A DNA stretch of 41,266 nucleotides from Xanthobacteraceae bacterium (lineage in GTDB: Bacteria; Pseudomonadota; Alphaproteobacteria; Rhizobiales; Xanthobacteraceae). Both the position numbers and the translations under genes were made by a program. Positions 4,130-40,645 of the stretch are shown here, in pieces; position 1 is the stretch's first letter, and every line of letters starts with the position of its first letter. The DNA lies in assembly GCA_030037885.1 (NCBI GenBank), contig JASHPU010000019.1:1-41266 (forward strand), written 5' to 3'. The notes under the pieces are model-generated. The model worked only from the letters and a program-made list of their open reading frames with translations, searched no databases and was not told the DNA's origin.

Positions 4130-4215
4130 GTAGCCCGGATGAGCGAAGCGACATCCGGGAGCAGCGCTGAAGCGTCCATGCACTTCCCGGATGTCGCTTC
4201 GCTCATCCGGGCTAC
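4130..4215. repeat. long perfect inverted repeat (31-bp arms)
   Basis: Arms at 4130-4160 and 4185-4215 are perfect reverse complements over 31 bp (GTAGCCCGGATGAGCGAAGC and onward), separated by 24 bp. The core CCCGGATG(A)GCG...CATCCGGG is a dispersed intergenic palindrome of the kind common in Rhizobiales. It begins 13 bp after the stop of the BNR-protein gene, so the transcript would end in a very stable hairpin, though no T-run follows. Confidence 0.85.
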
Positions 4216-6384: not shown

Positions 6385-6435
6385 CACCCCCTCCCTTCCC
6401 TCCCTCCCTCACAGGGGGGAGGGTTAGGGTGGGGG
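6385..6435. repeat. C-run/G-run palindromic repeat
   Basis: CACCCCCTCCCTTCCCTCCC faces GGGGGGAGGGTTAGGGTGGG across a short spacer. The same family appears at 12887-12930, 13289-13340 and, inside the E2 gene, at 33566-33637. Confidence 0.7.
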
Positions 6436-6600
6436 ACGCCGTCACACTTGCAGGACGATTTGGCACGCGAGACCTTGGGCGTGACAGGCTACACCTATAC
6501 GAAGGCGTGACCTCGCAGATGGGCGACGAGCTTTATCGCCCGCCGGCCGATCTGCGCGCGCCGGTTACCGCGTGAAGCGCGAGCGGCACGCTCTTTATTT

Positions 6601-6703
6601 CCTCATCCTGAGGCGCGAGCGAAGCGAGCCTCGAAGGATGAGGCCGAGGCGCTGGGGCCTGCATCCTTCGAGGCGCGCCTGCGGCGCGCACCTCAGGATG
6701 AGG
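6601..6703. repeat. inverted repeat of the CCTCATCCTGAGG family
   Basis: Starts CCTCATCCTGAGGCGCGAGC and ends GCACCTCAGGATGAGG, with an inner pair CTCGAAGGATG/CATCCTTCGAG. A second copy of the family is at 36041-36141. This is an intergenic repeat type frequent in Rhizobiales genomes. Confidence 0.8.
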
Positions 6704-7937: not shown

Positions 7938-7961
7938 CGGCGACGCGCCGTTTCATGAATT

Positions 7962-8023
7962 CCGCTCATTCCCGCGAAAGCGGCAATCCGGGACTGGGTC
8001 CTCGCTTTCGCGGGGACGAGCGG
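7962..8023. repeat. CGCGAAAGCGGG-family palindrome
   Basis: CCGCTCATTCCCGCGAAAGC at the left and GCTTTCGCGGGGACGAGCGG at the right form an imperfect inverted repeat of about 62 bp between mepA and the Yip1 gene. Related copies lie at 11532-11592, 20069-20144, 20160-20236 and, inside a gene, 34046-34108. Confidence 0.85.
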
Positions 8024-11430: not shown

Positions 11431-11500
11431 TCGTCATTCCGGGGCCGAGCGAAGCGAGGAGCCCGGAATCCATAACCCGGCGCAGGGCTTATGGATTCCG
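11431..11500. repeat. TCATTCCGGGG-family repeat, half element, flanked by 12-bp duplication
   Basis: CGTCATTCCGGGGCCGAGCG to ATGGATTCCGG resembles the left part of the fuller elements at 18921-19053, 21038-21139 and 34435-34523. It is flanked by CGGCTGACGCAG at 11416-11427 and 11499-11510, which looks like a target-site or slip duplication at the end of the transporter gene. Confidence 0.7.
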
Positions 11501-11531
11501 GCTGACGCAGACCGGCTGAAGAGCCACACCT

Positions 11532-11592
11532 CCGCTCATTCCCGCGAAAGCGGGAATCCAGGCTGGGTCCCCGCTTTCGCGGGGACGAGCGG
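11532..11592. repeat. CGCGAAAGCGGG-family palindrome
   Basis: CCGCTCATTCCCGCGAAAGC to GCTTTCGCGGGGACGAGCGG, the cleanest copy of this family in the window. It lies just downstream of the stop of the acyl-CoA dehydrogenase gene and would fold into a strong hairpin there. Confidence 0.85.
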
Positions 11593-20054: not shown

Positions 20055-20068
20055 GATCCGGCCGCGCT

Positions 20069-20144
20069 CCGCTCGTCTCCGCGAAAGCGGGGACCCAGTT
20101 CCTTTTCATGTCCTCTGGATTCCCGCTTACGCGGGAATGAGCGG
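20069..20144. repeat. CGCGAAAGCGGG-family palindrome (first of a tandem pair)
   Basis: CCGCTCGTCTCCGCGAAAGC to GCTTACGCGGGAATGAGCGG, immediately downstream of the DenD stop. A second related element follows at 20160-20236, so the whole 245-bp gap to sfsA is repeat. Confidence 0.85.
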
Positions 20145-20159
20145 AATACATTACACATT

Positions 20160-20236
20160 CCGCCCGTTCCCGCGAAAGCGGGGGACCCAGCTCTGGCGCA
20201 ATCCTCTGGATTCCCGCTTGCGCGGGAATGAGCAGG
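20160..20236. repeat. CGCGAAAGCGGG-family palindrome (second of a tandem pair)
   Basis: CGCCCGTTCCCGCGAAAGCG to GCTTGCGCGGGAATGAGCAGG. It has the same orientation as the preceding copy but differs in the spacer (CCAGCTCTGGCGCAATCC instead of CCAGTTCCTTTTCATGTC), so the two are independent insertions or an old duplication. Confidence 0.8.
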
Positions 20237-21013: not shown

Positions 21014-21037
21014 CGCGCAGAATCCGGATAATCACCT

Positions 21038-21139
21038 CGTCATTCCGGATCGCCGCGAAGCGGCGAGTCCGGAATCCATAAGCCCAGCGCAGGGGTTATG
21101 GATTCCGGGTTCCTCGCTTCGCTCGGCCCCGGAATGACG
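21038..21139. repeat. TCATTCCGGGG-family inverted repeat
   Basis: Starts CGTCATTCCGGATCGCCGCG and ends CTCGGCCCCGGAATGACG, with inner TCCGGAATCCATAA against TTATGGATTCCGG. It lies between sfsA and map. The open frame that continues left of map begins inside it. Confidence 0.85.
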
Positions 21140-21259
21140 AATCAAATTGCAGCCGTGACGAGCCCGCCAACTTGCTTGCGTTGCGCACCGGCATGCTTAC
21201 ATTGCGGTTCGACTGGCGGCTTGCAGCCGCTCGCATCGCGGCTGAAAATTTTTAGCGCC

Positions 21260-25761: not shown

Positions 25762-28700
25762 CTACACCGGGGAAGACGCGGCCGTGCCGTCCGGATGGGG
25801 TGGCGACGGCGCGCCATGGCGCGCGGCGCGGCGTCGCCGTCGCTCGTCGATGCGCTGCATCACAACGTAGAACGAGGGGACGAACACGACGACGAGGCAG
25901 GTCGAGGCGATCATGCCGCTGAAGACCGCGATGCCGATCGAGCGCCGTGCCCCGGCGCCGGCGCCGGTCGCAATGACGAGCGGGAATACGCCGAGAATAA
26001 AGGCGAACGAGGTCATGAGAATGGGCCGGAACCGCAGCCGGGCTCCTTCCACCGCCGCGCTGATGATCGCCATCCCCTCGGCCCGCCTCTGGCGCGCATA
26101 TTCCACGACCAGAATCGCGTTCTTGCTGCCGAGCGCGATCAGGAGGATAAGGCCGATCTGCGTATAGAGATTGTTGGAGGCGCCGAGGACGGTCAGCGCG
26201 CCGACGGTTCCAAGGAGCGCGAGCGGAACGCAGAGGATGACCGAGAGCGGCAGAATCCAGCTCTCGTACTGACCCGCCAGGACAAAATAGACGAGCAGCA
26301 CCGCAAGGCCGAAGACGAAATAGATCTGCTTGCCGACCGCCTTCTCCTGGTAGGACATCGCGGTCCATTCGAAGCCGGTTCCGCGCGGCAGCGCCTGCGT
26401 GCCGATCTGGTCCATGACGTCGAGCGCTTCGCCCGAGCTGAAGCCAGGGGCCGGGTTGCCTACCACCGTTGCCGACGGATAGAGATTATAGAGGCTGATC
26501 AGGGCCGGAGCTTGAACCTCCTGGACGTCGACCACCGTTCCGATCGGCGTCATGACTCCGTTGCCCGCCTTGACTTTCAGGCTGCGGATGTCGTCGATGG
26601 TCGCCCGGTAGTCCGGCAGCGCCTGCGTGTAGACCTGGAAAACGTGTCCGAACTTGTTGAACTGGGCCGCGTAGTCCGATCCGACATAGGTCGAGAGCGC
26701 CGCAAAGACATTGCCGGTCGTGATGCCGAGCGTCTCGGCCTTGATGCGGTCGACGACGACCCTGAATCCGGGGGCGGTGGCCCGAAAGGTCGTGCTCAGC
26801 CGCTGCAGCGACGATTGCGCGTTGCCGTCCCTGATGACGGCGTCGGCCAGGCTCTGCAACAACGCGTAGTCGAACTCGCCGTTCCTGATCTCGACCTGCA
26901 TCGAGAAGCCGCCGACGTTGCCGATGCCCTGGATCGGCGGCGGCGGCAGCGCGAACACGGCGGCCTGGCTCACGGCCTGCAGGGCGCGATTCAGATTCAT
27001 GATGATCGAGCGCAGATCCTGGCCCTTCTGCTTCAGCCGCACGTCCCAGTCCTTGAGAACGACGAACGCCACTCCGGCGTTGGCGAGCGATGCGAAATTG
27101 TCGAGAACGGAAACACCGCTGACGGCGACGACATGATCGACGCCGGGCACTTGCTGAACGATTCGCGAGATCTGTTGCATCACCGCATCGGTACGCTCCT
27201 TCGAGGCGCCGTCGGGCAGTTGCGCACTGACGATCGCATAGCCTTGGTCCTCGTCCGGCAAGAACGCCGTCGGCACCCGCATCAGCCCGCCGATCGCGAC
27301 GACGACCAGAATGAGCGCGAGGACGGTCATTGCGCCGCTGTGGCGTGTCATCGCCCCGATCAGCAGGACATAGAAGCGCTCGAGGCGGCGATAGACGGCA
27401 TTGAAGCCGCGGTAGAAAAGGTTGCGCCTTTCCAGAGGTCGCGGCGGCCGTAGCCACAGCGCGCTTTGCGTCGGCTTCAACGTCATCGCGTTGATGGCGC
27501 TGATGAAGGCCGTGGCGGCGATGACCAGCGCGAATTGCCGGTAGAGCTGGCCGGTGAGCCCGGGCAAAAATGCGGCCGGAATGAACACCGACATCAGCAC
27601 CAGCGTGATGCCGATGACCGGACCGGTCAGGTCGTCCATCGCTCTGCCGGCCGCCTCGCGGCCGGGAATACCCTGTTCGACATAGCGCGAGACACCCTCG
27701 ACGATGACGATCGCATCGTCGACGACGATCCCGATCGCCAGCACGATGGCGAACAGCGTCGCCAGATTGATGGTGAAACCAAGCGCCGCCATGGCGGCGA
27801 AAGCGCCGATGATCGTGACCGGAACGGTCGTCGCCGGCACCAGCATCGCCCGCCAATCCTGCAGGAAAACCAGAATGACGATCAGCACCAGTACAGCGGC
27901 CTCGAACAGGGTGACGTAGACCTCCCTGATCGAGGCGCGCACGAATTTCGTGGTGTCGTAGGGCGTCAGATAGCTCAGGCCGGCAGGAAAGCTCTTGGCG
28001 AGCTCGTCCATCTTGGCCTTGACCTCGTCGGCAACCGCAATGGCGTTGGCATTCGGCAGCAGCGAGATGGCGATACCGGCTGCCGGCCGGCCATCGAGAG
28101 CGAACGATTGGCTGTAGGTTTGGGCGCCGAGCTCGACGCGGCCGATGTCGCGGATCCTGGTGATTTGTCCGCCGTTCGCGGTCCCGGCCTTGACGATGAT
28201 GTTCTCGAATTCGGCGGGATTGTCGAGGCGGCCTTTCAGATCGAGCGAATATTGGAATTGCTGGCCCTGCGGCGCAGGCGGCGCGCCGACCTGGCCGGCA
28301 GGAACGACCTGACTCTGCTGCTGGATCGCATTGATCACGTCCTGCGGCGTCAGCGCCCGCGCCTGAAGCAGGTTCGGATTCATCCAGACCCGCATCGCGT
28401 ATTGCCCGGCGCCGAACACCTGCACGTTGCCGACGCCGTTGAGGCGAGCGAGTTCGTTCTGCAGGTTGATGACGGCGTAGTTCGCCAGGAACAGGCCGTC
28501 GAACCGGCTGTCGGGAGAAACCAGCGTGACGAATTCGAGTATCGAACTCGACCGCTTCGCCGTCGTCACGCCCTCGGCTTGCACGGCCGGAGGCAATGAG
28601 GCGAGGGCGGCGGCGACCTGGTTCTGCACCAGGATCTGCGCTTTATCGGGGTCGGTGCCGATCGCAAACGTGACGGTCAAGGAATAAGTACCGTCGCTCG

Positions 28701-28950
28701 CGCTGGTCGACTGCATGTAGAGCATGTTCTCGACGCCGTTGACGCTCTGCTCGATCGGCAGCGCCACGGTGTCGATCAGGGTCGCGGCGGTGGCGCCGGG
28801 GTACCGCGTCGAGACCTGGATGGTCGGCGGCACGACATTGGGATATTGGGCGCTCGGCAATTGATAGAGCGCGACCAGTCCGATCAGCACGAACACCAGA
28901 GCCAGCACGTTGGCGAGCACCGGCCGATCGATGAAAAAGCGCGAGATCAT
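25762..28950 (-). CDS. RND efflux permease, HAE-1 (AcrB/MexF) family
   Basis: A 1062-residue inner-membrane proton/drug antiporter. It has the standard RND layout: first helix at about 10-30 (FFIDRPVLANVLALVFVLIG), a large periplasmic loop, a helix block at about 340-560, second periplasmic loop, and a last helix block near 870-1035. Family motifs include PSAQYPNVVPPTIQVSTRYPGA at 37-58, the transmembrane acidic residues of the proton relay (AIGIVVDDAIVIVEGV, helix 4), and GGLMRVPTAFLPDEDQGY. The start ATG 28950 is chosen over 28995. It lies 19 bp downstream of the adaptor gene in the same operon. The closest type is MexF/HAE-1; substrates cannot be told. No outer-membrane channel or regulator gene is adjacent. 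Confidence 0.93.
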   Translation of the reverse strand: MISRFFIDRPVLANVLALVFVLIGLVALYQLPSAQYPNVVPPTIQVSTRYPGATAATLIDTVALPIEQSVNGVENMLYMQSTSASDGTYSLTVTFAIGTDPDKAQILVQNQVAAALASLPPAVQAEGVTTAKRSSSILEFVTLVSPDSRFDGLFLANYAVINLQNELARLNGVGNVQVFGAGQYAMRVWMNPNLLQARALTPQDVINAIQQQSQVVPAGQVGAPPAPQGQQFQYSLDLKGRLDNPAEFENIIVKAGTANGGQITRIRDIGRVELGAQTYSQSFALDGRPAAGIAISLLPNANAIAVADEVKAKMDELAKSFPAGLSYLTPYDTTKFVRASIREVYVTLFEAAVLVLIVILVFLQDWRAMLVPATTVPVTIIGAFAAMAALGFTINLATLFAIVLAIGIVVDDAIVIVEGVSRYVEQGIPGREAAGRAMDDLTGPVIGITLVLMSVFIPAAFLPGLTGQLYRQFALVIAATAFISAINAMTLKPTQSALWLRPPRPLERRNLFYRGFNAVYRRLERFYVLLIGAMTRHSGAMTVLALILVVVAIGGLMRVPTAFLPDEDQGYAIVSAQLPDGASKERTDAVMQQISRIVQQVPGVDHVVAVSGVSVLDNFASLANAGVAFVVLKDWDVRLKQKGQDLRSIIMNLNRALQAVSQAAVFALPPPPIQGIGNVGGFSMQVEIRNGEFDYALLQSLADAVIRDGNAQSSLQRLSTTFRATAPGFRVVVDRIKAETLGITTGNVFAALSTYVGSDYAAQFNKFGHVFQVYTQALPDYRATIDDIRSLKVKAGNGVMTPIGTVVDVQEVQAPALISLYNLYPSATVVGNPAPGFSSGEALDVMDQIGTQALPRGTGFEWTAMSYQEKAVGKQIYFVFGLAVLLVYFVLAGQYESWILPLSVILCVPLALLGTVGALTVLGASNNLYTQIGLILLIALGSKNAILVVEYARQRRAEGMAIISAAVEGARLRFRPILMTSFAFILGVFPLVIATGAGAGARRSIGIAVFSGMIASTCLVVVFVPSFYVVMQRIDERRRRRAARHGAPSPPHPDGTAASSPV

Positions 28951-28969
28951 GGCGGTGCCCCGCGATGTT

Positions 28970-30196
28970 TCATTGCGCCGCCGGGTCGGGAGCATTGGCC
29001 GCGCCGGGGCCTGATTGATCGGCCGCGACCGACGTCAGCTTGGTTTGTTGCGGTTCGACCTTGGCGCCTGGAAAAGCCCGCTGAACGCCTTCGGTCACGA
29101 CCCAATCGCCGGCGGCGAGTCCGGATTCAATGATGCGGAGCTGACCCTGCCTTTGGCCGGTTTTGACGATTTTGCGCTCAACGACGTTGTCCGGGCCGAC
29201 CACCAGCACATAGCTGCCTTCCTGGCTCGTTCCGATCGCGTCGTCTTGCGTCAGCAGCGCCTTATCCTGGTGCTCGACCGGAATCCGGACCCGCACGAAC
29301 AGGCCCGGCAGCAGCGCGCGATCCTTGTTGTCGAACAGAGCGCGCCCCGCCAGCGTACCGGTCGCGGTGTCGAGTTGCGGCGAGACGTAGTCCATATGCC
29401 CTTTGTGAGGATAGCCTTCCTCATCCTGCAGCCCGATCTCGACCGGGATGTTCGACAAGCCGGTCGTGCGCAAGTTCTTGCCCTGCCTTTCGAGGTTGCG
29501 CTGGATCGCCAGAACTTGCGGCTCGCTGGCGGTGAAATTGACGTAGATCGGGTCGTTCTGGACGATGGTTGCGAGTGGCGTGACCGTTCCAGCCACGCCA
29601 ACCAGCGTGCCGATATCGACCATGTGATTGGCGACGATGCCGTCGAACGGGGCGAGGACCCTGGTGTAGCCGAGGTTGATGTTCGCGGTATCGACGTTGG
29701 CCTTGTCGAGATCGACGGTCGCCTGGTTCTGCTGCACGACGAAGGCCTGGTCTTCCGCTTGCTGCGCCGCGATCGAATTCTGCTGTCGCAGCGTTTGATA
29801 ACGCTTCAGATTGGTTTGCGCCTGAGCGAGCACCGACTGGTCTTTCGCCAATTGCGCCTTGGCTTGATCGAGCTGCGCTTGATAAAGGCCGCGCTCGATG
29901 CCGAACAGCAGCGTTCCCGCCTTGACCTCGGCGCCGTCCTGATAATCGATCGTTTCCAGATAGCCCTGGACGCGCGCGACCAGATTGGCTGTTCGAAACG
30001 GCGCAGTGTTGCCGGTCAGATCGAGATAAAGGGTCACCGGCTGCTGCAGCGGCTGCGCGACCGTGACTTTCGGAGGCGGCGGCTCGACGTAAGCGTTTCT
30101 GGAGCCGCAGCCCGCAAGCGCGGCCGCGGCAAAAGCTGCAAGCACCGCCGAGCCACGGCGTCGTCCTTTCGCGGACGAAGAAAAGAGCTGCTGCAT
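28970..30196 (-). CDS. RND efflux periplasmic adaptor lipoprotein (MexE/AcrA type)
   Basis: A 408-residue membrane-fusion protein that links the RND pump to an outer-membrane channel. From ATG 30196 the N-terminus is a lipoprotein signal (basic SSSAKGRRR, hydrophobic AVLAAFAAAALAGC), with a lipobox LAGC near residue 30. It then shows the biotinyl-lipoyl half (VARVQGYLETIDYQDGAEVKAG), a Gln/Ala-rich coiled-coil hairpin (AQLDQAKAQLAKDQSVLAQA to QNQATVDLDKANVDT), the second lipoyl half (LGYTRVLAPFDGIVANH), and a beta-barrel. An upstream ATG at 30268 would add 24 residues before the lipobox signal and is less likely. It is the first gene of the efflux pair. Confidence 0.92.
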   Translation of the reverse strand: MQQLFSSSAKGRRRGSAVLAAFAAAALAGCGSRNAYVEPPPPKVTVAQPLQQPVTLYLDLTGNTAPFRTANLVARVQGYLETIDYQDGAEVKAGTLLFGIERGLYQAQLDQAKAQLAKDQSVLAQAQTNLKRYQTLRQQNSIAAQQAEDQAFVVQQNQATVDLDKANVDTANINLGYTRVLAPFDGIVANHMVDIGTLVGVAGTVTPLATIVQNDPIYVNFTASEPQVLAIQRNLERQGKNLRTTGLSNIPVEIGLQDEEGYPHKGHMDYVSPQLDTATGTLAGRALFDNKDRALLPGLFVRVRIPVEHQDKALLTQDDAIGTSQEGSYVLVVGPDNVVERKIVKTGQRQGQLRIIESGLAAGDWVVTEGVQRAFPGAKVEPQQTKLTSVAADQSGPGAANAPDPAAQ

Positions 30197-30336
30197 GAGC
30201 CTTGTCAGAGCCAATGCGACTGAAGCGAGCTGCGCCTTGCCGACCTTATTGAAAGTTCTCCAACGCATATAGAGGCTGCCTTCTATCGGACCAAGGCCTA
30301 TCGGAACAACAGTCGCATCGAGCGCCAGGCGCCGAT

Positions 30337-31923
30337 TTACGCGCGACCGACCGCGCGACGAAGGATCGCGCTTGTGTCGTCGGGCGCACGATCCGCAGCC
30401 CAGGCGACGTAGCGGTCCGGACGCACCAGGAGCCATTTTGCGGCGTAGGCGGTGCGGCCGTCGCGATAGCTGTCGCGGACTGTCTGCAATGGAATGCGCA
30501 GCTTTTGCGCCGCTTGCGCGAACGCCGCGACGGCGCGATCGTCGGCATCGAACGCCAGCAAGGTGAAATACCGGCCGAGTTCCTCGAATACGTTACGGCC
30601 GGAAGACAAAAGCTGCGGCGGCAGGTGATGGCCGGCGCGCGCAGTGAATGTATGCGTGCCCCGCGCGCTCGAAGCGCCGCCCGGCGGGCCGAACATGATC
30701 GGCGAGCCTTCGTAATGCGGCTCATAGGTGAGCACGCGCGGCACCGCGGCGCCCCGGTGCTCGTTCCAGGCGCGATCGAATTCGGCGCGGTCTTTGTCGG
30801 GGCTGTAGCGGGCGAGAAAGGCTGCGTCCTTCTGGATGCCGGCCTCGATGAAATCCCGTCCGGTCTCCACAAAGATCGGCTGCCGCTCTTCGCTGTAGCT
30901 GCGCAACAGCGCGTCGCTGCCCCAGCCTTCCAGCCTGGCGGCGAGCTTCCAGCCGAGATTGGCGACGTCGTCGAGGCCGTTGTTCAGCCCGTAGCCGCCG
31001 TAGGGCGGATGCGAATGCGCGGCGTCGCCGGCAATGAAGACGCGGCCGGCCTGGTAGCTCGCCGCAACGGCGATGCGCAAATCCCAGAAGCCCACATAGT
31101 CGAAATCGCAGGCAAACGGAAAGCCGGCGCATGTCTGCAACAGGCCGTGGAAATCGTAATTGTCGCGGGTGGTGCTCGGCGGCACCGGCGAATGGAAGAA
31201 CCAGCGCTCGCCGAGGTCGACGCGGCCGAAGAACTGCCAGTAGCCTTTGAGCACCGGATGCAGCACGCGGTAGGTCGAGCGCGGCGGAAAGCGCTTGAGC
31301 TTTTCGTGCAGTTCGCGGGAGCGGAACAGCGCCAGCACCATGAGCTGATTGAAATCGGCGCCGCTGCGTTCGATGCCGGTGCGGCGGCGCACCAGCGAAT
31401 GGCCGCCGTCACAGCCGACCACGTAGTCGGCTGCCAAAATCTCGCGGCGCGTTCCGCCATCCTCGGCAATGGTAACGCTGGCGCTGTCTGCGTCCTGCGC
31501 GACGGTTTCGGCCGCCCAGCCGAACCGGGTCTCGACATTGGGCAGCAGCGCCAAACGTTGGCGCAGCACGTTCTCGACCAGATATTGCGGCAGCCTTTCG
31601 TTGTGCTGAAAGTAATACGCGTTGACGATCTCGCGCAGCGGCGGCGCGTACCAGTATTCGTTGGCAAGATCGCGATAGGCGATGATGCCGCTCATCGGAA
31701 ACTCGGGCGGCAGCATGCGCGCGGCGCGCACCGCGTCGGCGACGCCCCAGACGTAAAGATGCTCCATCGAGCGCTGCGTGAGATTTTGGCCCTTCGGGAT
31801 CAGTTGCGGCTCCTTGCGCCGCTCGACCAGCGCGCACGCAACGCCGCGCAACCCGAGCTCGACCGCGAGCGCGACGCCGACCGGACCTCCGCCGACGATG
31901 ACGACCTGATAACGCTTATCCAT
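30337..31923 (-). CDS. FAD-dependent aromatic-ring monooxygenase (PheA/TfdB/PHBH family)
   Basis: A 528-residue class A flavoprotein monooxygenase. The N-terminal dinucleotide motif is VVIVGGGPVGVALAVELGLRG (8-28) with E35 in LVERR, the DG motif is CDGGHSLVRR, and the GD motif is RVFIAGDAAHSHPPYGGYGLNNG. The closing C-terminal thioredoxin-like domain (about 425-525) is as in phenol hydroxylase-type enzymes. It should use NAD(P)H and oxygen to hydroxylate an aromatic or related substrate; the substrate is unknown. It lies 140 bp upstream of the RND adaptor on the same strand, and 96 bp downstream of the 2-hydroxyacid dehydrogenase. The start is ATG 31923 at the FAD domain. Confidence 0.9.
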   Translation of the reverse strand: MDKRYQVVIVGGGPVGVALAVELGLRGVACALVERRKEPQLIPKGQNLTQRSMEHLYVWGVADAVRAARMLPPEFPMSGIIAYRDLANEYWYAPPLREIVNAYYFQHNERLPQYLVENVLRQRLALLPNVETRFGWAAETVAQDADSASVTIAEDGGTRREILAADYVVGCDGGHSLVRRRTGIERSGADFNQLMVLALFRSRELHEKLKRFPPRSTYRVLHPVLKGYWQFFGRVDLGERWFFHSPVPPSTTRDNYDFHGLLQTCAGFPFACDFDYVGFWDLRIAVAASYQAGRVFIAGDAAHSHPPYGGYGLNNGLDDVANLGWKLAARLEGWGSDALLRSYSEERQPIFVETGRDFIEAGIQKDAAFLARYSPDKDRAEFDRAWNEHRGAAVPRVLTYEPHYEGSPIMFGPPGGASSARGTHTFTARAGHHLPPQLLSSGRNVFEELGRYFTLLAFDADDRAVAAFAQAAQKLRIPLQTVRDSYRDGRTAYAAKWLLVRPDRYVAWAADRAPDDTSAILRRAVGRA

Positions 31924-32019
31924 CGGGTTTTGGAGCCTATGCGAAGGCGTGCCGAGGTCGGCGCTCCGCGCCAGCAAAAAAGCCGGCGCCGCGGCGCCGC
32001 AGCCGCGCTGTCTTCGCAA

Positions 32020-33009
32020 TCATCGCATGGCCGCCCTGCCCCACGAGTGCCACGGCGTTTCCGCAACCGGCGTCAGCGGCGGCTTGCCTGCCGCCCAGGC
32101 CAAGATGTTGTCGACGACGAGCTGGTCCATCCTGGCGCGCGTGTAGACCGACCCCGAGCCGAGATGCGGAAACAGCACGACGTTGTCCATCGCAATCAAT
32201 TCCGGCGGCACGTTCGGCTCTTTGGCGTAGACGTCGAGGCCGGCCGAGAGGATGCGCTTGTCCTGCAAGGCCTTGATCAGCGCCGGCTCGTCGACCACCG
32301 AGCCGCGCGCCATGTTGATCAAAATGCCGTCGGGGCCGAGCGCGTCGAGCACCTTGGCGTCGATCATGTTCGCGGTCGCCGCGCCACCCGGCAGGATCGC
32401 GAGCAGGACATCGACGTCGCGCGCCATGTCGATGAGGTTGGCGTAATGGCGATAGGGCAAATGGGCCCGCTGCCGCCGCGTGTGATAGACCACCGGCACG
32501 CCGAACGCGTCGAGCCGCCGCGCAATGGCCTGGCCGATGCCGCCCATGCCGACCAGCCCGACGGTGCGGTCGCGCAAGGTCGCGCTGGTCAGCGGATAGT
32601 CCTTCTCGCGCCACTTGCCGGCGCGCAGATAGCGTTCGGCCTGCGGCAGTTCGCGCACCGTGCAGAGCAAAAGCCCGAGCGCCGTATCGGCGACTTCTTC
32701 GTTCAGCACGCCCGGCGTGTTGGTGAGAATGACGCCGTGCGCGGCGGCCCATTTGGCGTCCATGTGGTCGTAGCCGACGCCGAAGCTGGCGACGATTTCG
32801 AGGTTCGGGAAGCGCTCCATGAAGCGGCCCGGGATTTTTTCCGTCGTAGCGCTGCAGGCGATGGCGCGCACGTCGGCGTGCGCGGCGAGGAACGCGTCGC
32901 GATCCTTCGCTGCGTGCGCCTTATGGACGATGCAGGCGCTTTCCAGCCCGCCCGTGACCACCGGCTTGAGCGGCCCAAGCAGCAGAACCTGTTTTTTCCG
33001 GTCCGGCAT
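32020..33009 (-). CDS. D-2-hydroxyacid dehydrogenase (glyoxylate/hydroxypyruvate reductase-like)
   Basis: A 329-residue NAD(P)-dependent enzyme of the D-isomer-specific 2-hydroxyacid dehydrogenase family. The Rossmann motif is GLVGMGGIGQAIARRL (150-165) and the basic residues THTRRQ after it (YHTRRQR) favour NADPH. The catalytic set is present: R in NMARGSVVDEPAL, E in LDVYAKEPNVP, and H in LFPHLGSGS. The frame ends HSWGRAAMR. Such enzymes reduce glyoxylate, hydroxypyruvate or other 2-oxo acids. It starts 13 bp after the stop of the E2 gene, so it belongs with the 2-oxoacid dehydrogenase cluster, and is followed by the FAD monooxygenase. Confidence 0.9.
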   Translation of the reverse strand: MPDRKKQVLLLGPLKPVVTGGLESACIVHKAHAAKDRDAFLAAHADVRAIACSATTEKIPGRFMERFPNLEIVASFGVGYDHMDAKWAAAHGVILTNTPGVLNEEVADTALGLLLCTVRELPQAERYLRAGKWREKDYPLTSATLRDRTVGLVGMGGIGQAIARRLDAFGVPVVYHTRRQRAHLPYRHYANLIDMARDVDVLLAILPGGAATANMIDAKVLDALGPDGILINMARGSVVDEPALIKALQDKRILSAGLDVYAKEPNVPPELIAMDNVVLFPHLGSGSVYTRARMDQLVVDNILAWAAGKPPLTPVAETPWHSWGRAAMR

Positions 33010-33022
33010 TCTCGATCCTCGT

Positions 33023-34417
33023 TCACACCAGCATGCGCACCGGCGCCTCGATCAAATCCTTGAACGCGGCGAGCAGTTGCGCGCCGAGCGCGCCGTCGAC
33101 CACGCGATGGTCGCACGACACCGTGACGCTGAGCAGGCTCGCGAAGCCCACCCCGCCGTCGGCTTTCTCCACCGCCTGACGCCGCGCCGCGCCGATCGCC
33201 AAAATCGTCGCGTGCGGCGGATTGATGATGGCGGCGAATTCGCGCACGCCGTACATGCCGAGATTGGAGATCGCCGACGAACCACCCTGATATTCGGCCG
33301 GCGCAAGTTTTTTCGCCCGCGCGCGCGCCGACAGATCCTTCATCTCGGCAGAGATGACGGAGACCGATTTGCTCTCCACTCGGCGGAGCACAGGCGCAAC
33401 CAGGCCGTCGTCCAGCGCGACGGCAATGCCGAGATCGCAATGCTTGAAGCGCAGAATGCGGTCGCCGGCCCAGACGGCGTTAGCGGCCGGCACGCGCTGC
33501 AAAGCCAGCGCCCAGGCACGGATCAAAAAATCGTTGAGCGAGAGTTTGAAAGCCGAGCCTGCGCTTTCCTCCCCTGCTTGCGGGGGACGAGCCCCCACCC
33601 TTCCCTCCCCCGCTTGCGGGGGAGGGTTAGGAAGGAGGGCGGTGTTCGCTTCCTCGCGCAAGGCGATGAGCCGGCCGATGTCCACGTCGGCAGTCAGATA
33701 AAAGTGCGGAACGGTCTGTGCTTCGGTTAGACGCGCCGCAATGGTGCGGCGCATGGCATCCAGCTTCACTTCCTCGTACGAGTCGGCGGCATAGAGTGAC
33801 TTGACGCGTTCGGCGCTCGGCGCCTCCGGCGTGCGTTGTTGTTGCGCAGCCGGCGCCTCCTCGACGTCGCGGGCGACGATGCGGCCGTGCGGACCGGAAC
33901 CGCGCAGTTGACGGAGATCGATGCCCGATTCGGCGGCGAGCCGGCGCGCCAGCGGTGTGACGCTGACGCCGCCCGGCAGCCGCGCCGGGCCGAAATTGCG
34001 CGCCGGCGTGCGCACCTCGAAGAACGGATCAAGCGGGACCTTTGGCCGCTCGTCCCCGCGAAGGCGGGGACCCGGAACCTGGATTCCCGCTTGCACGGGA
34101 ATGAGCGGAGATGGGGCTGCTGGCGGCTTGGTTTGACCGGATGCGACAGCTACGTTTACCGGTTGCTCGCGCGGTTGCGTACTCGTCCCGTCGGCAATCA
34201 CCGCGACGACCGCGCCGACCGGCGCCACGTCGCCGGCGGGCACCCGGATTTCAGACAAGAAACCGGCGCTGGTGGCCGGCACTTCCATCGATACTTTGTC
34301 GGTCTCGATCTCGAACAGGTTGTCGCCCGGCGCGACCGCTTCGCCGGCCGACTTGAACCACTTGGTGATTTTTCCTTCGGCGACGGTCTCGCCGAGCTGC
34401 GGCATCAGGATGTTCAT
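33023..34417 (-). CDS. 2-oxoacid dehydrogenase E2 (dihydrolipoamide acyltransferase) with two in-frame palindromic-element insertions
   Basis: A 464-residue E2 core subunit: one lipoyl domain (1-78, lipoyl lysine K41 in ETDKVSMEV), a linker, the E1/E3-binding domain (150-186, VTPLARRLAAESGIDLRQL and GPHGRIVARDV), and the acyltransferase domain (215-464) with the catalytic VSCDHRVVDGA (434-444). Two segments are foreign. Residues 104-124 (PLIPVQAGIQVPGPRLRGDE and R) are a 63-bp CGCGAAAGCGGG-family palindrome in the linker. Residues about 261-284 (NPPPQAGEGRVGARPPQAGE and flanks) are a second, unrelated palindrome inside the catalytic domain, between ANTA and the conserved KLSLNDF. Both keep frame and stop-free reading. 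Probably a pyruvate or acetoin-type complex; no E3 gene is nearby. The start is ATG 34417. Confidence 0.9.
   Translation of the reverse strand: MNILMPQLGETVAEGKITKWFKSAGEAVAPGDNLFEIETDKVSMEVPATSAGFLSEIRVPAGDVAPVGAVVAVIADGTSTQPREQPVNVAVASGQTKPPAAPSPLIPVQAGIQVPGPRLRGDERPKVPLDPFFEVRTPARNFGPARLPGGVSVTPLARRLAAESGIDLRQLRGSGPHGRIVARDVEEAPAAQQQRTPEAPSAERVKSLYAADSYEEVKLDAMRRTIAARLTEAQTVPHFYLTADVDIGRLIALREEANTALLPNPPPQAGEGRVGARPPQAGEESAGSAFKLSLNDFLIRAWALALQRVPAANAVWAGDRILRFKHCDLGIAVALDDGLVAPVLRRVESKSVSVISAEMKDLSARARAKKLAPAEYQGGSSAISNLGMYGVREFAAIINPPHATILAIGAARRQAVEKADGGVGFASLLSVTVSCDHRVVDGALGAQLLAAFKDLIEAPVRMLV
33566..33637. repeat. C-run/G-run palindromic element inserted in frame in the E2 gene
   Basis: On the minus strand CCTCCCCCGCAAGCGGGGGA-type units occur twice (33 bp apart), encoding PPQAGE twice. 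The length is about 72 bp (24 codons). Related intergenic copies lie at 6385-6435, 12887-12930 and 13289-13340. Confidence 0.8.
34046..34108. repeat. CGCGAAAGCGGG-family palindromic element inserted in frame in the E2 gene
   Basis: Exactly 63 bp, CCGCTCGTCCCCGCGAAGGC to CTTGCACGGGAATGAGCGG, same design as the intergenic copies at 7962, 11532, 20069 and 20160. It starts at the first base of codon 104 when read on the minus strand and adds 21 codons. Confidence 0.88.
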
Positions 34418-34434: not shown

Positions 34435-34523
34435 CGTCATTCCGGGGCCGAGCAACGCGAGGCACCCGGAATCCATAACCTCGGACGGTGCAAGTTCTGC
34501 ACGGACCGGGATTATGGGTTGCG
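34435..34523. repeat. TCATTCCGGGG-family repeat
   Basis: CGTCATTCCGGGGCCGAGCA to GGGATTATGGGTTGCGG, a degenerate copy lacking the closing GGAATGACG. It fills the 125-bp space between the succinate-semialdehyde dehydrogenase stop and the E2 start. The E2 frame is open back into it (34465), which is not taken as coding. Confidence 0.7.
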
Positions 34524-36040: not shown

Positions 36041-36141
36041 CCTCATCCTGAGGCGGCCGCGAAGCGGCCCTCGAAGGATGTAGGCCCCGGCGCCCGGGCC
36101 TCGCCCTTCGAGGCTCGCTTCGCGAGCACCTCAGGGTGAGG
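36041..36141. repeat. inverted repeat of the CCTCATCCTGAGG family
   Basis: CCTCATCCTGAGGCGGCCGC, an inner CTCGAAGGATG, and a right half CCCTTCGAGGCTCGCTTCGC ending CACCTCAGGGTGAGG. Same family as 6601-6703. It separates the aldehyde dehydrogenase gene from the divergent HTH gene. Confidence 0.82.
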
Positions 36142-36184
36142 AATTGAGGCATGTATTGGTGCGCTGGTATAAGACGCCGATACC

Positions 36185-37250: not shown

Positions 37251-38231
37251 CTAACTCTGCATCGCCTTCCGCACCCGCTCCGCAATCCGCTCCACCGTCG
37301 GCAGCGCGATGTCTTCCAGGATATCGGCGGCGGGGAGCGGGATGTGCGGGGTGGTGATGCGCACCGGCGGGCCGTCGAGGTCGTAGAACGCTTCGTCGGC
37401 GACGATGGAGACGATCTCGGCGCCCCAGCCGCACAGCCGCGGATTTTCCTCCACGGTGAACAGGCGGTGGGTGCGCGCCACCGACCCCAAGATGGTCTGG
37501 GTGTCGAGCGGCACCAGCGAGCGCACGTCGACGACTTCGCAGTCGATGCCGTGCTCGCTTTTCAGCGTCTCGGCCGCGGCGAGCGCGCGCGGCACCATCA
37601 GGGCGAGCGCCAGCAGCGTCGCATCCTTGCCGGGCCGCACGATCTTGGCGCTGCCGAGCGCGTCGACGATCTCGCCGTCCGGCACCTCGCCCTTGGTCGG
37701 ATAGAGCGACTTGTGCTCGAAAAAGATCACCGGGTCGGGATCGCGCACCGCCGCCGCCAAAAGTCCGATCACGTCGCGCGGGTTAGACGGCGCCACGACC
37801 TTCAAGCCCGGAATCATCATGCACCAGTTCTCGACGCTCTGCGAATGCTGGGCGCCGAAGCGCGAGCCGGCGCCGTTGCCGGTGCGCACCACCAGCGGAC
37901 ATTTGAGCTGCCCATTCGACATGTAGCGGCTCTTGGCGAACTCGTTGGCGATGTAGTCGAAGCAGACCGCGAAGAAATCCGAGAACATGATCTCGGCGAT
38001 CGGCTTCAGGCCGGTCATCGCCGCGCCCATGGCGGCGCCGAGGATCGCCTGTTCGGAGATCGGGGTGTCGCGCACGCGCAACGGGCCGAACTGCTCGTAG
38101 AGCCCGACCGTGGCCTTGAACACGCCGCCGGCCTTGGCGATGTCCTCGCCGAGGAACACCACGTCGGGATCGCGCGCCATCTCTTGCGCAATGCCGCGCG
38201 CGACCGCGTCGCGATAGGTCAGTTCCGCCAT
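37251..38231 (-). CDS. 2-oxoacid dehydrogenase E1 beta subunit
   Basis: A 326-residue E1-beta subunit of a thiamine-diphosphate alpha2-beta2 dehydrogenase (pyruvate or acetoin type). Landmarks are MAELTYRDAVARGIAQEM, VVFLGEDIAKAGGVFKATVGL (24-44), VRDTPISEQAILGAAMGAAMTG (53-74), RTGNGAGSRFGAQHSQSVENW, PVIFFEHKSLYP, and the DIRSLVPLD-type block (VDVRSLVPLDTQT). Closest in kind to PdhB/AcoB, so it acts on pyruvate or acetoin; branched-chain E1-beta is less likely. It overlaps the 3' end of E1-alpha by 13 bp, so the pair is one transcript. It converges with the toxin gene. Confidence 0.9.
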   Translation of the reverse strand: MAELTYRDAVARGIAQEMARDPDVVFLGEDIAKAGGVFKATVGLYEQFGPLRVRDTPISEQAILGAAMGAAMTGLKPIAEIMFSDFFAVCFDYIANEFAKSRYMSNGQLKCPLVVRTGNGAGSRFGAQHSQSVENWCMMIPGLKVVAPSNPRDVIGLLAAAVRDPDPVIFFEHKSLYPTKGEVPDGEIVDALGSAKIVRPGKDATLLALALMVPRALAAAETLKSEHGIDCEVVDVRSLVPLDTQTILGSVARTHRLFTVEENPRLCGWGAEIVSIVADEAFYDLDGPPVRITTPHIPLPAADILEDIALPTVERIAERVRKAMQS

Positions 38232-39250
38232 GCGAAACCTCCGTCGGCGTAAACGTCCTTGGTCAGAATATCGCGCGGCGGCATCGGCGCCGTCTTGCAT
38301 TTTTCCGTGGCGTCGTCGACGCGGCGGCGCACGTCGGCGTCGATTGCGGCAATAACGTTGTCGGCAATGCCGAACTGCTTGAGCCGCTCGCGATAAAGCT
38401 TGATCGGGTCGCGCGCCTTCCACTTTTCCAGCTCGCCCTCCGGCCGGTATTTGGCCGGATCGGCGCGCGAATGGCCGCTGTGGCGGTAGGTCATGCACTC
38501 GACCAGCGACGGCCCGCCGCCGTCGCGCGCCTTGGCGTAGGCGGCGCCGGCGGCGCGGTAGACCGCATCGGCGTCGTTGCCGTCGACCACGATGCGCGGC
38601 AGCCCGTAAGCGGCGGCGCGGTCGGCGGCCGGATGTTGCACGGCGGTAACATCGCCGATCGGCGTGTATTCCATGTAGAGATTGTTCTCGCAGACGAAGA
38701 TCACCGGCAGCTTCCACACCGCGGCGAAATTGAGCGCTTCGTGGAAGGCGCCGATATTGGTCGTACCGTCGCCGAAGAAGCACACCGCCACGTCCTTCGC
38801 ACCCTTGTATTGGGCGCGCCAGGCGGCGCCGCAGGCGATCGGCAGATGCGCGCCGACGATGGCATAGGAACCCATCACGCCGTGCTCGGCCGAGGTCAGG
38901 TGCATCGAGCCGCCCTTGCCGCGCATGAGGCCGTTGTCACGCTGCATCAGCTCGCCCAAGACTTTTTCGATCGGCACGCCGCGGGCGAGCGTGTGGGCGT
39001 GGCCGCGATAGGTGCAGAACGACAGGTCGCCGGGTTTCATGGCGGCGGCAAAGCCGGCAGCGACCGCCTCCTGGCCGAGCGACAAGTGGCTGGTGCCCTT
39101 GACCAGGTTCTGCAGGAACAGATCGAAGGCGCGCTGCTCGGCCTCGCGAATCTCGACCTGGATGCGGTAGAGCCGCAGCCGCGTCGCCTCGCCGATATCG
39201 TCGTTGAGGCCCGCCGCCGCAGCGGGCGCGCGGTCTTCGACCTTGGCCAT
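38219..39250 (-). CDS. 2-oxoacid dehydrogenase E1 alpha subunit
   Basis: A 343-residue E1-alpha subunit with the thiamine-diphosphate motif GDGTTNIGAFHEALNFAAVWKLPVIFVCENN (160-190). It keeps the conserved HLSLGQEAVAAG (55-66), YRGHAHTLARG (81-91), RGKGGSMHL (110-118) and TYRHSGHSRADP (phosphorylation-loop region), typical of PdhA/AcoA. ATG 39250 is used because AAGAGG lies 6-11 bp upstream; the ATG at 39256 is too close to it. It is the first gene of the E1 pair, but E2 is 4 kb further on, past the toxin-antitoxin islet and the aldehyde dehydrogenase. A lone E1 pair without E3 suggests an acetoin- or PDH-like side complex. Confidence 0.9.
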   Translation of the reverse strand: MAKVEDRAPAAAAGLNDDIGEATRLRLYRIQVEIREAEQRAFDLFLQNLVKGTSHLSLGQEAVAAGFAAAMKPGDLSFCTYRGHAHTLARGVPIEKVLGELMQRDNGLMRGKGGSMHLTSAEHGVMGSYAIVGAHLPIACGAAWRAQYKGAKDVAVCFFGDGTTNIGAFHEALNFAAVWKLPVIFVCENNLYMEYTPIGDVTAVQHPAADRAAAYGLPRIVVDGNDADAVYRAAGAAYAKARDGGGPSLVECMTYRHSGHSRADPAKYRPEGELEKWKARDPIKLYRERLKQFGIADNVIAAIDADVRRRVDDATEKCKTAPMPPRDILTKDVYADGGFAWRN

Positions 39251-39256
39251 TGCCAT

Positions 39257-39532
39257 CCTCTTGGAAAACCGGAAATCCGCTATGGGTGTACGCAACTTAG
39301 CGCCAGTTGCGAAGCCGAGGCAACGCCGTTTGCCGCCTTCGGGTTTGCCGCTCCGCCCGGCTTTGTATGCCAGGCACTTCGGCCGCCGCGCTGGCCGCAC
39401 TGCGCGCGATCACAACCCCGTTCCAGCGCCCGTTTAATGCGCTCACCGCGCAAATCGACAACGCGACCAAACATGCTCAACTCGCCACGCAAACTTGACA
39501 CATTCACGCCAAGTGGCGTTCGTTAAACAGGG
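39257..39532. other. 276-bp region upstream of E1-alpha with a small palindrome
   Basis: No gene is recognised. The palindrome ACGCCA, AG, TGGCGT at 39506-39519 is a possible operator; the nearby TTGACA at 39495-39500 on the plus strand has no gene downstream except the MITE-like element. The E1-alpha promoter should lie in this stretch. Confidence 0.35.
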
Positions 39533-40078: not shown

Positions 40079-40645
40079 ATGCGACGTATCTTTGCTATCG
40101 CCGCGATCTTATCGCTCGCGGTTCCAAGCTTGGCCTTGGCTCAAGGACCGGCGGGCGGAAATCAGCACGGCAATAATAATAAAGGCGGCGGCCGGCCGCC
40201 GCCCCGCGCCTTCGTGCGTCCCGGACCGGCCGGTCACGGGCCGGTCGTTCACGGCCCAGCCCTTCACGGTCCGGTTGTTCACGGCCCTGTTGTTCATGGC
40301 CCTGTTGTTCATGGCCCCGTTGGTCACGGCCCCGTACGCTTCGGCGGCCCCGCTGTTGGGCATGGACCTTGGCTTTTCCACGGCCATTCGTATGCGTGGC
40401 ATCCGGTGCATTTCCCGCGCCCGTGGATCTATCCGCCGGGCTTTGCCTATCGCCTGTGGGCCGTCGGCGCGATTCTGCCGCCGCTGTTCTGGTCGACACC
40501 GACTTACTACTACACAGGCTGGGCCAGCATGGGATTGCCGCCGCCCGATCCCGGCTTTCAATACGTCGAATACGGGCCGGACCTGCTTCTCGTGAATGTC
40601 GGCACTGGTCAAGTCGTCCAGGTATTCCCCGGAGCCTTTAGCTGA
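40079..40645 (+). CDS. secreted RcnB-like protein with tandem HGPVV repeats
   Basis: A 188-residue exported protein: signal peptide (MRRIFAIAAILSLAVPSLALA, cleavage before QG), an N-terminal Asn/Gly/Pro-rich segment, then a tandem array of five-residue units (HGPVV, with variants HGPAL, HGPVG) at about 53-86. The C-terminal domain (LPPPDPGFQYVEYGPDLLLVNVGTGQVVQVF) matches the end of RcnB/YohN-type periplasmic proteins, which modulate nickel and cobalt efflux in E. coli. The His-rich repeats could bind metal, but this is inference; no RcnA or metal regulator gene is in view. A strong GAGGAG ribosome-binding site precedes the ATG. Confidence 0.7.
   Translation: MRRIFAIAAILSLAVPSLALAQGPAGGNQHGNNNKGGGRPPPRAFVRPGPAGHGPVVHGPALHGPVVHGPVVHGPVVHGPVGHGPVRFGGPAVGHGPWLFHGHSYAWHPVHFPRPWIYPPGFAYRLWAVGAILPPLFWSTPTYYYTGWASMGLPPPDPGFQYVEYGPDLLLVNVGTGQVVQVFPGAFS
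40231..40334 (+). repeat. tandem 15-bp coding repeats
   Basis: Units of about 15 bp with core CACGGCC(C)TGTTGTT encode the HGPVV array. GTTGTTCATGGCCCT is repeated almost exactly at about 40290-40315, so the array is likely to vary in copy number by replication slippage. Confidence 0.75.

Follow-up and report, generated by a model that had tools for sequence, protein, structure and literature searches.

In-gene REPs were described in 2013 in several species, outside Rickettsia as well as within it and sometimes twice in the same gene, and in the available text of that paper more than half of the intragenic GTAG and CGTC REPs are dimers or groups that code for 20-30 residues (PMC3733652). According to the same excerpts, the CGTC-1 REPs comprise RPE-6 of Rickettsia and dRS3 of Neisseria, the first two stem pairs of CGTC REPs are almost invariably A-T, recB of X. 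campestris and recB of X. oryzae carry different REPs at roughly one position, and the neutrality of REPs in linkers or loops had already been proposed (PMC3733652). RPEs are about 150 bp long and nearly half of them lie inside ORFs, as stated in the accessible parts of two sources (PMC10969869, PMC3733652). A 2024 review, in the portion available, considers in-frame fusions via intragenic MITEs not unusual and the frequency of RPEs unusually high, and regards it as conceivable that proteins of other prokaryotes evolve in a comparable way (PMC10969869).

The first-pass annotation of the DNA described here presented two palindromes read in frame within one E2 acyltransferase gene as special to an unexpected group of bacteria. 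That part of the proposal is not supported on comparison with the accessible text of the 2013 paper, where in-gene REPs, outside Rickettsia and two per gene, are already known (PMC3733652). What is new is the recurrence of such elements at two fixed sites of a single gene, one of them in the catalytic domain. No report of repeats in E2 linkers or loops was found among the titles and abstracts of the literature matches listed, in which subscription journals are poorly covered.

The gene lies in a window of 41,266 nucleotides (the whole stretch of DNA that was analysed) from a Xanthobacteraceae bacterium, and its surroundings are as follows.

30337-32019, minus strand: flavin monooxygenase, on the same strand as the nearby E2
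32020-33009, minus strand: 2-hydroxyacid dehydrogenase, on the same strand as E2
33023-34417, minus strand: E2 acyltransferase gene, 464 aa, intact, translated without stops
about 33566-33637, minus strand: element e2, consisting of a C-run/G-run palindrome and part of a second unit, read in frame within a catalytic-domain loop
34046-34108, minus strand: element e1, 63 bp, an inverted dimer built from a REP-like palindrome, in the E2 linker, in frame, residues 104-124
34435-34480, no strand assigned: member of a third palindrome family, CGTCATTCCGGGG...CCCGGAATCCAT, with CGTC at its end, directly upstream of the E2 start codon
34542-36194, minus strand: aldehyde dehydrogenase, on the same strand as E2
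37251-38783, minus strand: E1 beta, on the same strand as E2
38219-39400, minus strand: E1 alpha, on the same strand as E2

The protein encoded at 33023-34417 has lipoyl, E3-binding and 2-oxoacid dehydrogenase acyltransferase domains (PF00364, PF02817 and PF00198). Five other matches to it occur in its own genome (G000), one of which is full-length with 52% identity and lies on contig C230. The E2 studied here is therefore an additional, second E2, and its earlier description as an essential-type enzyme is unsupported, since the genome has another. Comparison with the sister genome G018 gives a dN/dS of 0.30 at a dS of 0.115 (372 codons), which shows that the gene is under purifying selection, and the protein is predicted from its sequence to be made and active with its inserts. 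An ORF at 30253-33063 on the plus strand, the pick of a greedily trained codon model, was set aside as likely false (30505-33063 is without a Pfam match); the codon model used instead was trained on seven ORFs of the window, namely 25762-28995 and six others that match Pfam families.

Read on the coding strand, e1 runs from CCGCTC to GAGCGG and is translated in frame as PLIPVQAGIQVPGPRLRGDER. As single-stranded DNA, the segment 34040-34115 folds at -23.1 kcal/mol (z -5.2), with 0 of 200 shuffles as good. The usual arms of the family are CCGCTC-ATTCCCGC-GNAA-GCGGGAAT-CCAG and CTGG-GTCCCCGC-loop-GCGGGGAC-GAGCGG. The stems formed by ATTCCCGC/GCGGGAAT and GTCCCCGC/GCGGGGAC measure 8-9 bp, in agreement with the stem of CGTC REPs, and the loop (mostly GCAA or GAAA) and the inner end CCAG agree with their loop of 4-5 bases and CCA tail. 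The first two stem pairs are A-T in the ATTCCCGC arm, and the GTCCCCGC arm opens with G-C. The unpaired terminal tag CGTC, TGTC or CCTC is absent, the outer ends being CCGCTC and GAGCGG, and e1 is therefore named CGTC-like rather than a CGTC REP; by its sequence it resembles the CGTC superfamily (RPE-6, dRS3) as portrayed in the available excerpts (PMC3733652). Alternative open frames of the E2 copy would give more basic peptides and one contains a stop, and for a 62-bp copy the same comparison is mixed.

Within the acyltransferase domain, where it lies between A260 and K291, the second element, e2, is translated as LLPNPPPQAGEGRVGARPPQAGEE, with CCCTCCCCCGCAAGCGGGGGAGGG at the centre of its palindrome, and the segment 33560-33642 folds with a z of -3.0 (1 of 200 shuffles as good). 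It is no clean addition: about six native loop residues (KDxxGN-like) are replaced, for a net gain of 19 codons relative to G017. The GTAG end is absent from the e1 and e2 sequences examined (genomic e1 copies and loop inserts), and a search of the window revealed no cross-match between the e1 and e2 families. On these points the first-pass annotation was right, both in describing two unrelated palindromes in frame in one E2 gene, e1 at residues 104-124 and e2 between A260 and K291, and in placing one of them inside the catalytic domain, in a loop of PF00198. Its view that the insertions are tolerated likewise holds, the gene being open and its dN/dS against G018 being 0.30.

An AlphaFold2 model of the E2 (34 sequences, mean pLDDT 83, pTM 0.61) has a core that matches known E2 cores and lies mostly above a pLDDT of 90. 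Both insert segments are of low confidence in this model, indicative of predicted disorder: residues 83-142, the linker with e1, are mostly under 50, and the blocks at 261-290 that hold e2 reach 54-67 between helices 248-261 and 294-308. When aligned with PDB sequences, the e2 insert falls on the short connection that precedes KISVNDF in the mammalian E2, and the two element peptides themselves gave no matches to PDB sequences at E up to 1.

Further e1 copies in the window were located at three places.

7961-8023, plus strand: e1 copy (L058), flanking coding frames discontinuous
11527-11592, plus strand: e1 copy (L036), flanking coding frames discontinuous
20068-20233, no strand assigned: two adjacent e1-type dimers, from repeat searches of the window

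The statement that the same families also occur between genes of the window is thus clear for e1 but weak for e2, for which a single match of 83% was found at 6387-6428. Both families are repetitive in their own genome, and copies occur in related genomes. The search with e1 gave at least 40 matches in the own genome (40 of 159 candidates scored), that with e2 at least 74 (40 of 57 candidates scored) and that with an e1 peptide profile at least 149 (150 of 591 candidates scored), and since matches on the two strands often fall on one and the same palindrome, the e2 and profile figures are not copy numbers. Flanks were analysed for 30 of the 40 scored e1 matches; 27 of these 30 parse as full inverted dimers (L046, L050 and L060 do not), a figure biased by the use of a dimer as query. 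Outside E2 the parsed copies are mostly 61-62 bp long and 4 of 26 are multiples of three, including the shortened 57-bp L059. Frame neutrality is therefore what an open gene lets through, and the "frame-neutral process" proposed earlier was too strong a wording.

Among the 27 parsed own-genome copies, the one in E2 is alone in having two coding-like flanks in one open frame. The phase also matches at L039 and L054, yet both have stops inside the element or within 20 codons of it, and for seven copies (L034, L037, L044, L047, L048, L051 and L056) the flanks on one strand look coding and differ in frame; these may represent intergenic spaces or broken genes. This flank test is rough: on blocks from the genes used to train it, the codon model recovered the correct frame in 42 of 46. 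When 20 e1 matches in long open frames, picked among the matches listed (10 from the own genome and 10 from others), were inspected by eye, none was clearly gene-internal, and they appeared to be chance or antisense frames or elements preceding a start codon. A link to RAYT proteins found no support: one (L093) of ten Y1-transposase loci has an e1 arm nearby, the own genome being incomplete, and no mobilising enzyme could be tied to e1 or e2 at these loci. The own-genome Y1 matches have open frames of 39-149 aa, which we take to be IS200-sized or fragments.

Several other repeats were observed in the window. A perfect inverted pair of GTAGCCCGGATGAGCGAAGCGACATCCGGGA with a GTAG end lies at 4130-4160 and 4185-4215, so that GTAG- and CGTC-ended repeats coexist there, and the CGTC-ended family CGTCATTCCGGGG...CCCGGAATCCAT recurs at 11431-11478 and 21037-21140 in addition to its place upstream of E2. 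Two identical 105-bp copies with inverted repeats in and beside them are found near both contig ends (113-217 and 39533-39637), the two halves of an 80-bp inverted repeat, 85% complementary, lie 29 kb apart (6599-6678 and 36064-36143), and tandem 15-bp repeats of a TCACGGnCCGGTCGT-like type occupy 40219-40293.

Orthologues of the E2 were taken from the 71 of 296 family genomes with a match at E 1e-125 or better, and all 71 were compared; the G018 row ends at a contig end, and the G223 match covers residues 111-464 only, the upstream part being unlike E2 in the fetched frame. Linker states, called by motif search and by eye, comprise e1-type DNA in 22 of the 71 (20 with both arms, G112 and G156 partial), another repeat family in three (G006, G051 and G134) and no recognised repeat in 46. 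The left arm is weaker in G187 (19 of 30 bases matching) and in G223 (18 of 30), both of which have a clear right arm. All 20 inserts with both arms are read in phase 0 (CCG CTC ATT CCC or changed forms), and their lengths, 63-105 bp, are without exception divisible by three, a necessity in an open gene. The right arm is of the ATTCCC type in G004, G330, G334, G181 and G223 and of the GTCCCC type in G000, G017, G276 and others, so that even the sisters G276 and G334 differ in type. In the linkers of G026 and G109 (L008 and L240) e2 is nested within e1, in frame and with a total of 105 bp, and e1 is also present in the linkers of the single-contig genomes G128 and G255.

The loop from N258 to K291 has 11-17 residues in 63 of the 71 orthologues and 22-35 in the other eight. 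Seven of these eight carry e2 (G000, G018, G109, G248, G330, G310 and G326), in a single reading phase in all seven, and G026 has a different sequence. The loop carriers belong to genera g1, g8 and g34, and the native KDxxGN-like loop is gone in each. Near relatives retain a loop of native length, such as G269 (KDKDGN) beside G310 and G134 (QGADKT) beside G109; relative to G269, about 21 native bases have been replaced by 48 in G310, a net gain of 27. Linker carriers account for 6 of the 8 rows with a loop insert vs 16 of the 63 others (Fisher 0.009), rows that are not independent of one another. The first-pass annotation had called for a search for insert-free orthologues, and these make up 46 of 71 for the linker (as no recognised repeat) and 63 of 71 for the loop. 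It had also named the same segments in orthologues of distant genera as evidence against insertion: inserts at both sites do occur in orthologues from other genera (G026, G109, G330 and G326), but are read here as recurrence.

Repeats do not seem to be confined to this E2. A set of 40 paralogous E2s (20 + 20) from the same family, about 50% identical, is taken as putative pyruvate dehydrogenase E2s. None of the 40 has the loop insert, which was found only in the second E2, and 14 of the 40 have, as we read them, another REP-like peptide (PSPQPSPQRGEG and kin) in the linker. The own genome's other E2 (L283, G000:C230:1216-2676) is among them, with two REP-like peptides, PSPQPSPQRGEG and PSPRRGEGGGEG. 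E2 linkers in general seem to accept repeats. The paralogue linkers of L289, L291 and L310 have in common a SSFETxPxxAPQDE-like peptide, which may be another translated repeat.

The history of the inserts was examined on a tree built without the linker and loop columns, a quick tree in which 26 of 68 forks are open. Loop presence takes at least seven state changes for eight carriers (mean with shuffled labels 7.8; as few or fewer in 200 of 1000 shuffles), and the loop inserts look scattered over the tree, not clearly clustered. Linker e1 takes at least 13 changes for 22 carriers (mean with shuffled labels 19.2; as few or fewer in 0 of 1000 shuffles), a clustering that suggests that part of the linker cases were probably inherited; spacers are related within genus g34, and G136 has a possible e1 remnant. 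Parsimony is blind to gain versus loss. Since the regain of a lost native loop is unlikely, most loop changes are read as gains, and allowing for unsupported forks and counting G000 and G018 once, we read five or more, most of which would be separate events. For the e1 arms, distance does not increase with fourfold-site distance, with a rho of -0.19 and means of 0.23 and 0.44 (210 pairs from 21 carriers, with the partial row G112 in and G156 out, the pairs sharing branches and not being independent). This pattern agrees better with elements that arrived separately, or were refreshed by conversion, than with simple inheritance.

Estimates of selection on the inserts differ with the comparison. 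Against G017 the whole gene has a dN/dS of 0.17 and the linker insert (22 codons) one of 1.03, with a dS of 0.17 in the insert vs 0.96-1.17 in other parts, and against G004 the linker insert gives 1.21. The G000-G018 comparison finds two differences in the linker insert (dN/dS 0.40) and, in the e2 insert (26 codons), a dN/dS of 0.26 with a dS of 0.28, above the gene's 0.115; these are too few sites to call, yet show no sign of relaxed constraint.

The inserts, their copies elsewhere, the orthologues that lack them, the common phase and the missing native loop residues are probably explained by ordinary palindromes of the REP/RPE type that spread widely, with selection removing most in-gene copies and two disordered E2 segments accepting them repeatedly. 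We infer that the elements moved as DNA and that in-gene copies were purged. Under this explanation e1 and e2, or repair events copying them, would land at many genomic places, and in-gene copies would mostly be lost because most lengths shift the frame or because the peptide damages the protein. Survival would then be seen at two E2 segments: a surface loop in the catalytic domain, and the swinging-arm linker, which is long and rich in Ala and Pro. Persisting copies would keep the frame, be read in the phase whose peptide is rich in Pro, Ala, Gly and Gln, and decay later, and loop events may have proceeded via microhomology-type copying between the C-run and GGC ends of the target. From the sequences, we read recurrence as preferable to a shared old insertion, on the grounds that near relatives have a native-length loop and that family, arm order and spacer vary among the inserts.

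In the linker, part of the cases may go back to a shared old insertion. A single ancient e1 insertion, inherited family-wide, refreshed by gene conversion and lost many times, with only the loop inserts being recurrent, is a possibility that we take seriously while leaning against it. The same region and phase in 20 of 20 two-arm rows, the clustering on the tree (13 changes against a shuffled mean of 19.2), the similar g34 spacers, the partial copies in G112 and G156 and the possible remnant in G136 would all follow from it, and the uniform linker phase could indeed have its source in one old insertion refreshed by conversion. However, arm order differs between carriers, even between the sisters G276 and G334, spacers and lengths vary widely, and the linkers of G006, G051 and G134 hold other repeat families. 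A more far-reaching proposal, speculative and rather unlikely in our view, is that E2s of this family repeatedly recruit mobile palindromes as segments of the protein, both as favoured building blocks of the linker and in a loop that is preferentially replaced, the native one having been exchanged for an element at least five separate times; if true, repeat turnover would drive the evolution of E2 linker and loop length. It is quite unlikely that selection keeps the elements for a use, whether in setting the length or flexibility of the swinging-arm linker or as RNA hairpins tuning operon expression. Recurrence at two sites of one gene, uniform phase, strong hairpins, repeats in 14 of 40 paralogue linkers and dN/dS values under 1 for the two inserts in the G018 comparison (at few sites) would be compatible with such a use, but the linker insert has a dN/dS near 1 against G017 and G004, most orthologues do without inserts (46 of 71 linkers, 63 of 71 loops) and some copies look decayed. 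An assembly chimera or decaying gene, which a 309-contig assembly of 90.5% completeness might bring to mind, is extremely improbable. Assembly error and pseudogene status were both rejected, as the sister G018 has both inserts, the single-contig G128 and G255 have e1 in the linker, the dN/dS is 0.30 and the matched part is free of stops in 71 of 71 orthologues; gene decay, which had been raised earlier as a possible objection, is rejected on the last two counts.

Through its natural insertions, the gene documents where an enzyme can accommodate added segments. In-gene palindromes are mostly recorded as single cases, whereas this E2 offers many natural replicates together with insert-free near relatives as controls, and these make it testable which element lengths, phases and peptides are tolerated, whether target DNA is replaced and whether "selfish" repeats become protein. 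A caution also follows, in that E2 linker alignments and annotations of this family contain repeat-derived residues.

Set beside the known systems, e1 shares with the RAYT-mobilised REPINs the inverted dimer of short palindromes, but it has no GTAG end, and e1/e2 sequence lies beside only one of the Y1 loci examined. The likeness to CGTC REPs, as far as the accessible text describes them, extends to the 8-bp stem, 4-base loop and CCA tail, to inverted dimers as sampled with a dimer query, to one arm whose stem begins with two A/T pairs, and to many copies in alpha-proteobacteria, also inside genes, for which no dedicated transposase was found; the outer tag of e1, however, is CCGCTC, and its second arm opens with G-C and T-A rather than with two A-T pairs (PMC3733652). 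As in the Rickettsia type, the palindrome lies in frame in a conserved gene and is absent at that site in orthologues, and in-frame palindromes are kept in known genes at fold-tolerant sites. In contrast to RPEs, in what is available of the two sources, 1 of 27 parsed own-genome e1 copies could be shown to lie in frame in a gene here, and one gene has been hit in several genera (PMC10969869, PMC3733652). The recB case is similar in that one site is used by different REPs in related species, whereas, going by the excerpts available, the E2 gene differs from it in having two sites, several repeat families, 71 orthologues for comparison and native residues missing from a loop of the catalytic domain (PMC3733652).
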